DNA of 7,925 nt from an archaeon. GTDB taxonomy: Archaea; Hydrothermarchaeota; Hydrothermarchaeia; JALTZZ01; JALUTC01. Shown one piece after another: positions 5,530 to 7,925 of this stretch (position 1 is the stretch's first letter; the number at the start of each line of letters is the position of its first letter). A program made the position numbers and the translations under genes. The notes under the pieces were generated by a model, which worked only from the letters and a program-made list of their open reading frames with translations, ran no database searches and had not been told where the DNA came from. The stretch lies in contig JALTZH010000255.1 in the NCBI GenBank assembly GCA_027051265.1, forward strand, positions 1 through 7,925, read 5' to 3'.

Positions 5530-7925
5530 TCAGTAATTAAGAATTTTTTTAATTTCTTCTAAAACTTTTATCTCATCATCTCTTAGATACTTTTTATTTT
5601 GTTCTAAAATTTTTAATTCTTCTTTCGATATAAATGTATATAATATATCATTTTCATCTATATTTCTACCAATAAATCCTTCATCTATCGCAATTGCAAC
5701 CCTATCTCCCTTTTTTGCTTCATCAAGTGATTTTCTTTCATATTGAATGCTTAAAATTTTTCCAACTATTTTTCCATTCTTGAATAGTTTATAATTTCTT
5801 CTTATTGTACCTTCTAGAACTTCTATTCCAACAATGGCAGGCTTACTTATTCTGAAAACGTATCCCTGTAATATCTTTATCTTCGCAGGTCTAGTGATTG
5901 CTTCTAGAACTTTTCTCTTTCTCTTTTCCTCATATTCTTTAAGCCAATTCTCATAATCTTCAATTAATTTATATATAACATTATTTATAAAAACTTTTAT
6001 ACCATATTTCTTGATCTCTTCCTCAACTCCTCTAGCAATTTTTACGTTAAATCCTATAATTACCCCATATTTAGCATCGTGTACCTTCGATGCGTTTGCT
6101 TCAATTACATCTCTCCTTGTAATATCTCCGATATCAGCAATTCTTATAGGAATATTTTTCTTCTTTAACATGTTTAACATCGCTTCTAAAGCGCCTATCG
6201 TATCAGCTTTTATAACTATTCCAACATTATTCGTTTCAATTTTATATTGTTCAATTTCTTTTCTTATTTCATTTAAACAACGGTTGATGTTTCCTTTACA
6301 TACAATTAATGGCATTCCAGCAATTGCGTCTTCCAAATTTTGAGCTGCGATTTTTATACCAGCTGCAGCTGAAACCTTATTAACAGGTTTAAATTTATGT
6401 CTAGGATCTCGCATCTCATCCAAAGGTTTTGGTTTAAGTAAAGCTTTAACTTTTGTTACTATTATTTTGTTATCTTTCCCAGCCAGTACTATAGTATCAC
6501 CACGCTTTATATTTCCATCATATATTATAACGTCTATAGTTTTTCCAAGACCCATTTCTTCTCTAACTTCTAGTATAGTGCCTTTTGCCGGTTTGTTTGG
6601 ATCTATTTTTAATTCTCTCTTTAGATACCTCTGTGATAAGCCTACAAGTAACATTAAAAGTTCAGGAATTCCTTCACCAGTTATAGCAGAAACTGGCACT
6701 ATAGCTATTTCTCTTGTAAAATCTCTTACTCTATCAAATCTATCCGCATTAAATCCAAGTTCATTCAGCTTAAAAACTATGTTGTAAATTTTTTCTTCTA
6801 GTATTCTTAACGTTTTACTGCTTTGCTTAATTAAGCTATGTGTTATCGGGAAGTTTTCAAAGGGTTTCCATCCATAAATCTTATCAATCTTATTCGCAGC
6901 AACTATAAACGGCGTTTTATATGCTCTAAGAATCTCAATACTCTCTATAGTTTGCGGCATTATTCCTTCGTTTACATCAATTACGAGAATTGCAAGATCA
7001 GCGAGACTCGACCCCCTTTTTCTAAGACTCATAAACGCCTCGTGTCCTGGGGTATCGATGAAAAGTAATCCGGGTATTGTAATGTTTACTTTCAATTGTT
7101 TAAGTAAACCTCCGCAAATTTCCTTTATAGTACTTATTGGAATTTCCGTTGCACCAATATGTTGTGTAATACCTCCAGCTTCTTTTTTGGCAACCGCAGT
7201 CCCTCTAATTTTATCGAGCAGAGTTGTATTATGTACTATAATTCCATTGGATATGAAGTTGAAATGTTCCGTTACCAAATCGTAGACGTATCCTTTATAT
7301 TTATAAGCGTTAATTCTAATTATTTTTTCAAAATCTATCTGAAAAAAATCAGGTATGGGTATCTTTTCGTATAATTTATGCTGCCAGATTGTTTTGAAAT
7401 CTTTATACTTATTATCTTTAAGCAGTCTTTTTATACGCTTTAGGTTAGGCTTTCTTATCGTTTTAATAAATTTCATCCACGAATCTTTAGGAATCGTATT
7501 TCTCAAACCTTTCTCATATTCATATATTTCCTCTATATTTATATCGTTTAGTAGATATCCAAAAGAGAGTCTTAAACATTTAAGATAAAATCTATCAATC
7601 GTAATCTCATCGGAAGAGTTTTGTGAATAGATTGCTATTTCATCATTTTCTTTCAAAAATCTTGCCTCTTTCCAACCTTCACGTGTTAAAAATGGATGTT
7701 CCTTTGTAACATGAATACATTTTCCATTTTTTAACGTTATCTCATAAATATAATCACAATAAAATCTCCTAACCAAATTAGCACGTGATTTTATGATCGA
7801 ACCTTTTCCTAAAGATAAAACATGGCAAGAAGCATCGATATCTTTTATTCTCACATGAGATTCATCGCTCAGTAAAACTTTTTCGTCAGGAAGAATGCAC
7901 TTCCCATGATCTATATGACCTAATA
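5530..7925 (-). CDS. infB: Translation initiation factor aIF5B (infB/FUN12 type) precursor containing an intein; first codons beyond window
   Basis: aIF5B is the cytosolic GTPase that promotes ribosomal subunit joining during initiation. The visible frame runs from base 7923 leftwards and opens with LGHIDHGK, the P-loop, so only about ten N-terminal residues are missing. A 224-residue intein follows, then the extein resumes with TTLLDKIRGTAVAKKEAGG. G-domain motifs in order are GHIDHGK/TT (G1), GITQHIGAT (switch I Thr, G2), DTPGHEAF (G3), NKID (G4) and VSAITGEG (G5). The C-terminal part covers the remaining aIF5B domains, including PAKGTILEVREEMGLGKTIDVI, the domain III segment NVGIVIKADTIGALEAML, and domain IV with RPAKIKILQGYVFR. 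The extein totals about 575 visible residues, normal for the archaeal short form lacking the eukaryotic N-terminal extension. The GTG at 7854 is inside the intein and is not a start. The gene heads the infB-DUF424-endonuclease V run. Without splicing the P-loop is broken, so splicing should be needed for activity. Confidence 0.96.
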   Translation of the reverse strand, partial: LGHIDHGKCILPDEKVLLSDESHVRIKDIDASCHVLSLGKGSIIKSRANLVRRFYCDYIYEITLKNGKCIHVTKEHPFLTREGWKEARFLKENDEIAIYSQNSSDEITIDRFYLKCLRLSFGYLLNDINIEEIYEYEKGLRNTIPKDSWMKFIKTIRKPNLKRIKRLLKDNKYKDFKTIWQHKLYEKIPIPDFFQIDFEKIIRINAYKYKGYVYDLVTEHFNFISNGIIVHNTTLLDKIRGTAVAKKEAGGITQHIGATEIPISTIKEICGGLLKQLKVNITIPGLLFIDTPGHEAFMSLRKRGSSLADLAILVIDVNEGIMPQTIESIEILRAYKTPFIVAANKIDKIYGWKPFENFPITHSLIKQSSKTLRILEEKIYNIVFKLNELGFNADRFDRVRDFTREIAIVPVSAITGEGIPELLMLLVGLSQRYLKRELKIDPNKPAKGTILEVREEMGLGKTIDVIIYDGNIKRGDTIVLAGKDNKIIVTKVKALLKPKPLDEMRDPRHKFKPVNKVSAAAGIKIAAQNLEDAIAGMPLIVCKGNINRCLNEIRKEIEQYKIETNNVGIVIKADTIGALEAMLNMLKKKNIPIRIADIGDITRRDVIEANASKVHDAKYGVIIGFNVKIARGVEEEIKKYGIKVFINNVIYKLIEDYENWLKEYEEKRKRKVLEAITRPAKIKILQGYVFRISKPAIVGIEVLEGTIRRNYKLFKNGKIVGKILSIQYERKSLDEAKKGDRVAIAIDEGFIGRNIDENDILYTFISKEELKILEQNKKYLRDDEIKVLEEIKKILNY
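7228..7899 (-). mobile_element. Intein (224 residues, no intact homing endonuclease) in the aIF5B P-loop
   Basis: The insert begins at Cys1 (codon 7897-7899) directly after GHIDHGK and ends at VHN (Asn codon 7228-7230), directly before TTLLD, so Thr is the +1 nucleophile. Splicing blocks are visible. Block A is CILPDEKVLL (1-10). Block B is GKCIHVTKEHPFL with Thr65 and His68 of the TxxH motif, followed by GWKEARFLKENDEIAI. Block F is YKGYVYDLVTEHFNF with Asp207. Block G is NGIIVHN, with His223 and Asn224. All class 1 intein catalytic positions are present, so splicing is expected. At 224 residues it is much shorter than inteins carrying a LAGLIDADG endonuclease and somewhat longer than minimal ones; about 100 residues of linker separate blocks B and F. 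Inteins are known in archaeal infB homologues; whether this exact site is the same one needs alignment. Confidence 0.95.

Follow-up and report, generated by a model that had tools for sequence, protein, structure and literature searches.

The infB (aIF5B) gene in the window, which is the whole 7,925-base contig of an archaeal MAG (1.46 Mb, 95% complete), is interrupted in its P-loop by a class-1 intein of 224 aa. In our preferred reading, to which we assign a probability of roughly 60%, this element is a cis-splicing mini-intein at the IF2-a site, whose ancestor at that site was a full-length LAGLIDADG intein that lost its nuclease core by deletion, with the accessory domain (ACD) kept as a folded spacer that the Hint domain needs.

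Translation of 7220-7923 gave LGHIDHGK, then Cys1 through His-Asn224, and then TT, with TTLLDKIRGT directly following Asn224 (codons of Cys1, Asn224, and Thr+1: 7897-7899, 7228-7230, and 7225-7227, respectively). The split point is located between Lys and Thr of the P-loop (GHIDHGK/TTLLD). An intein in this position, with coordinates that proved exact, had been claimed in the original prediction, and was borne out by the translation, the Pfam Intein_splicing model (PF14890; 74.3 bits, with a cut-off of 35.8), the NCBIfam intein N-terminal model (TIGR01445), and the Hint fold. The splicing residues, also expected to be intact, were all present: Cys1, T65/H68 of block B, His223-Asn224, and Thr+1. 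The infB frame was open through to its stop (797 aa in the window), and its N-terminus is missing because the contig end cuts the gene. In an AF2 model of the whole intein (pLDDT 88, pTM 0.70; the fifth model, pLDDT 63), in which the domain orientation is only moderately sure, the Hint fold superposed on PDB inteins with Z up to 21.8 and rmsd of 1.3-1.5 Å, the highest Z being that with the solved structures of the NpuDnaB and Ssp DnaB inteins. At the level of residues and of the modelled fold, the element is a class-1 intein, whose splicing we infer. The MAG yielded a single infB copy, so that the cell is plausibly dependent on this splicing.

Table 1. Features of the intein and its host gene in the window.
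Feature	Position	Strand	Basis
Complete 224-aa intein at IF2-a, from Cys1 to Asn224	7228..7899	-	Translation, junctions, PF14890 (E 1.2e-20)
Hint-N, residues 1-91, with Cys1 and block B T65-K-E-H68	7627..7899	-	Invariant alignment columns; TIGR01445 (E 1.5e-9)
ACD remnant, residues 92-187, HTH-like, LAGLIDADG core deleted	7339..7626	-	hhalign with permuted controls; repeat hhalign; AF2
Hint-C, residues 188-224, with block F Asp207 and His223-Asn224	7228..7338	-	Invariant alignment columns
N-extein within the window, LGHIDHGK (opening part of the P-loop); remainder past the contig end	7900..7923	-	Translation
aIF5B C-extein, TTLLD... to the stop, +1 residue Thr	5530..7227	-	TIGR00491, PF00009/PF11987/PF14578

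If the segment were a normal part of aIF5B, relatives should carry it. The P-loop of infB in a genome of the same order (G002) was uninterrupted, reading VLGHVDHGKTTILDKIRG, and infB frames of the same class were of ordinary length, mostly 583-631 aa; the segment is therefore an insertion. A genome of the same genus (G001; L034/L054, JALUTC010000197.1) possessed an insertion at the same site, also of 224 aa. The two inteins were 58% identical with no gap, the C-exteins were 85% identical, and the gene order downstream of infB was common to both. Directly upstream of infB, the congener carries a gene recognized by eye as DsrC/TusE-like (L054:3521-3889); the window contig breaks before reaching this point, inside infB.

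Among the genome and contig loci collected, the same Lys/Thr junction was occupied by 44 distinct inteins of 145 to 575 aa, including that of the window, with hosts in Thermococcaceae, Methanococci, Archaeoglobaceae, Thermoproteota, Thermoplasmata, and Aenigmatarchaeota. IF2-a is an ordinary and established site, and the window intein belongs to the known allele there. Although an endonuclease-free state in this gene had been regarded as less usual, seven of the 44 were compact, with neither core nor ACD (L081, 145 aa; L058, 172 aa; L079, 173 aa; L037 and L062, 179 aa; L077, 180 aa; L055, 191 aa), one of them in a near-complete genome of the Methanocaldococcus group. These share the site and the absence of the core with the window intein, but have also lost the ACD. 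The full-length inteins of Methanocaldococcus, Thermococcaceae, and Archaeoglobaceae (e.g., L035, 546 aa) share the junction (GHVDHGK/C...HN/TTLLD), the Hint blocks, and a homologous ACD with the window intein, but contain a LAGLIDADG core (PF14528) and a longer ACD, whereas the window intein lacks the core and has a trimmed ACD. In L038 (254 aa, Methanocaldococcus group), the core is similarly deleted and the ACD kept. L035, L037, L038, and L043 are probably from M. jannaschii, M. vulcanius, M. infernus, and P. abyssi, respectively. A reverse state, with a trace of the LAGLIDADG core and no ACD match, was noted in Desulfurococcales IF2-a inteins of ~357 aa (L060, L061, L063, L067, L070, L078, and L094).

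Full-length IF2 inteins are arranged as Hint-N, linker, LAGLIDADG core (PF14528), ACD of ~117 aa, and Hint-C. The window intein showed no match to PF14528 or to the core profile, but did match the ACD profile. When residues 92-188 (aligned with the congener) were compared with the ACD by hhalign, a probability of 94.9%, an E-value of 4.4e-8, and a score of 46.8 were obtained; the scores against the core and the pre-core linker were 12.4 and 12.1, respectively, and the best of 100 column permutations reached 22.4. A separate hhalign comparison of the whole intein pair with the ACD alignment A6 recovered residues 98-188 (94.5%, E 8.2e-8). A single-sequence HMM search was weaker (15.8 bits, vs. 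12.6 for the best of 4,000 shuffles), and no credible Pfam match was found for the middle segment searched alone. Residues ~92-187 are thus a conserved remnant of the endonuclease ACD, not a plain linker, and the window intein is not a mini-intein in the sense of a bare Hint domain. The claimed loss of the homing endonuclease is correct as regards the LAGLIDADG core, but not the ACD, of which ~90 aa remain.

The same segment may, in principle, be an unrelated helical or HTH insertion gained independently after the endonuclease was lost: HTH modules are common, the acquisition of various accessory domains by inteins has been proposed (PMC8966425), and the identity of the remnant to other IF2 ACDs is only 14-27% outside the genus. 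We consider this very unlikely, because the match to the ACD is collinear over 88 columns and reaches the Hint-C boundary, and the IPIPDF preceding Hint-C has a counterpart, ISIPNF, in a full-length Thermoprotei intein. Kinship with the full-length Thermoprotei intein L056 was recognized by eye (RLRLYFSLSATDVGIPYLRKYENNFEKMTLRTWKKFINNIK ... WENKGYREISIPNF beside CLRLSFGYLLNDINIEEIYEYEKGLRNTIPKDSWMKFIKTIRK ... WQHKLYEKIPIPDF).

The remnant alone was modelled by AF2 as nearly all helical (pLDDT 90.7, pTM 0.80). The first half of the ACD in L035 resembled Pfam HTH_3 (E 4e-4; 20.8 bits, below the cut-off of 23), and no Pfam HTH match was obtained for the window remnant itself. A Foldseek search of the remnant against PDB revealed no significant relative; the top rows were mostly XRE/Cro-type regulators (C.Esp1396I, HipB, and SinR), with a best, non-significant E-value of 1.6. 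The ACD profile against PDB sequences returned only coiled-coil and other chance rows. Beyer and Iwai described accessory domains between HEN and Hint-C in the TliVMA, PhoVMA, and PI-TkoII inteins, and called those of TliVMA and PI-TkoII helix-turn-helix-like (PMC8966425); these inteins reside in other host genes and, unlike the window intein, still possess the HEN fold. An HTH-like label for the modelled remnant is reasonable, but unproven. That this module still binds nucleic acid, such that the unspliced aIF5B precursor or the excised intein would act as a DNA/RNA-binding regulator making the splicing of the translation factor, or else infB expression, respond to a nucleic-acid signal, seems extremely improbable.

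Divergence in the remnant does not exceed that in the splicing domain. Between the window and the congener, dN was 0.37 in the remnant, 0.43 in Hint-N, 0.40 in Hint-C, and 0.09 in the C-extein (synonymous sites are near saturation, making dN/dS rough), with amino acid identities of 59, 55, and 59% in the remnant, Hint-N, and Hint-C, respectively. In Pyrococcus inteins of 392-444 aa, parts of the core are missing, together with the first LAGLIDADG motif; their ACDs were 68-71% identical, vs. 46-66% in the HEN region, and exceeded Hint-N in identity in three of four pairs. L038, in which the core is lost, matched the ACD profile with an E-value of 6e-8. In a tree of the Hint domain, a comparison proposed together with the original prediction, L038 was placed in a euryarchaeal cluster (100/93), whereas the window pair (100/98) fell outside it and grouped with Thermoproteota and Aenigmatarchaeota inteins (95/78, with long branches). 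Since L038 and the window pair fall apart, loss of the core while the ACD was retained seems to have taken place at least twice, a claim limited by short alignments and long branches. A scan of viral contigs yielded only distant inteins with local matches.

These data also bear on whether the remnant is a passive relic, under no selection, in an intein that is becoming a compact mini-intein. Such a course would fit the compact relatives at IF2-a that lack the ACD, and the second half of the ACD is already partly deleted in the window, the congener, and L038. However, the two species retain inteins of equal length without indels in spite of their divergence, dN of the remnant is as low as that of the catalytic domain, its model is well folded, and a like pattern recurs in Pyrococcus and L038. 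We therefore regard a passive relic as unlikely.

In the preferred reading, retention of the ACD as a spacer, splicing would proceed through an N-S shift at Cys1, transfer to Thr+1, and cyclisation of Asn224, restoring GHIDHGKTTLLD and a working P-loop, as expected from the intact residues and fold; the predicted spliced junction peptide is GHIDHGKTTLLDK. The element can no longer home because the nuclease core is deleted, and would persist because it is located in an essential gene in which only an exact deletion may be tolerated. The ACD between the core and Hint-C, trimmed to ~90 aa yet kept, may serve as a structural spacer at the endonuclease insertion point that keeps the two Hint halves in register (HINT-HEN "mutualism"). 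In published work, the TFIIB and TliVMA inteins splice less well when HEN is deleted, and in the case of TFIIB splicing is partly rescued by a longer loop (PMC6801210, PMC8966425). The Methanocaldococcus TFIIB inteins, in which the splicing domain relies on the nested endonuclease as a scaffold (PMC6801210, citing Iwai et al. 2017), are a model for the window intein, but differ in that the degenerate HEN itself is kept. By analogy, a clamp or spacer is the most likely role of the ACD remnant in this lineage. Against a general need for such a spacer, seven mini-inteins at IF2-a dispense with any ACD, and, therefore, an ACD is not a requirement of the site as such.

It had also been suggested that the intein may be under conditional control by redox or temperature; as a switch of this kind, or one responding to metal, it would couple translation initiation to the environment. 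Conditional splicing has been published for RadA and DnaB inteins (PMC5790916, PMC6195587), and control would be effective at a P-loop. Nevertheless, the +1 residue is Thr, none of the eight visible N-extein residues is Cys, Cys1 and Cys25 are the only cysteines shared with the congener, and the sequence indicates no sensor. Redox control through Cys1 thus found no specific support, and a switch of any of these kinds is quite improbable.

Only two members of the exact form in the window are known. No description of a Hint domain plus trimmed ACD without a nuclease core was found in the literature searched, which lay mostly outside subscription journals; this is a new form of a known intein allele, for which priority is not claimed.

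The MAG is rich in inteins (contigs C211, C79, C178, C80, and C173; loci L002, L004, L006, L007, and L008), with further in-frame inteins in genes that were named by eye from their translations: replication factor C small subunit (at least two inteins), RNA polymerase A'', DNA polymerase II large subunit, an NAD synthetase, and a helicase of Ski2-like type. The insertion in NAD synthetase, an unusual host gene (L007 on C80; LLGYF/C...GN/TKYGDGG), apparently ends in Gly-Asn, not His-Asn, before Thr+1, and its match to the intein model was below the curated cut-off. An EF-2 intein (L017 in G052) was observed at the matching P-loop position (AHIDHGK/C...HN/TTLSDQ). Since this locus and G112:C25 both matched the profile of IF2 inteins (E-values of roughly 1e-58 to 1e-61), profile similarity suggests that inteins spread between the P-loops of paralogous GTPases.

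The inteins at IF2-a constitute a natural deletion series: full inteins, those with a decayed core and an ACD, those free of the core with an ACD (in what seem to be two separate lineages), and mini-inteins reduced to the Hint domain. With this series, it can be tested directly whether the ACD serves splicing or only DNA recognition.
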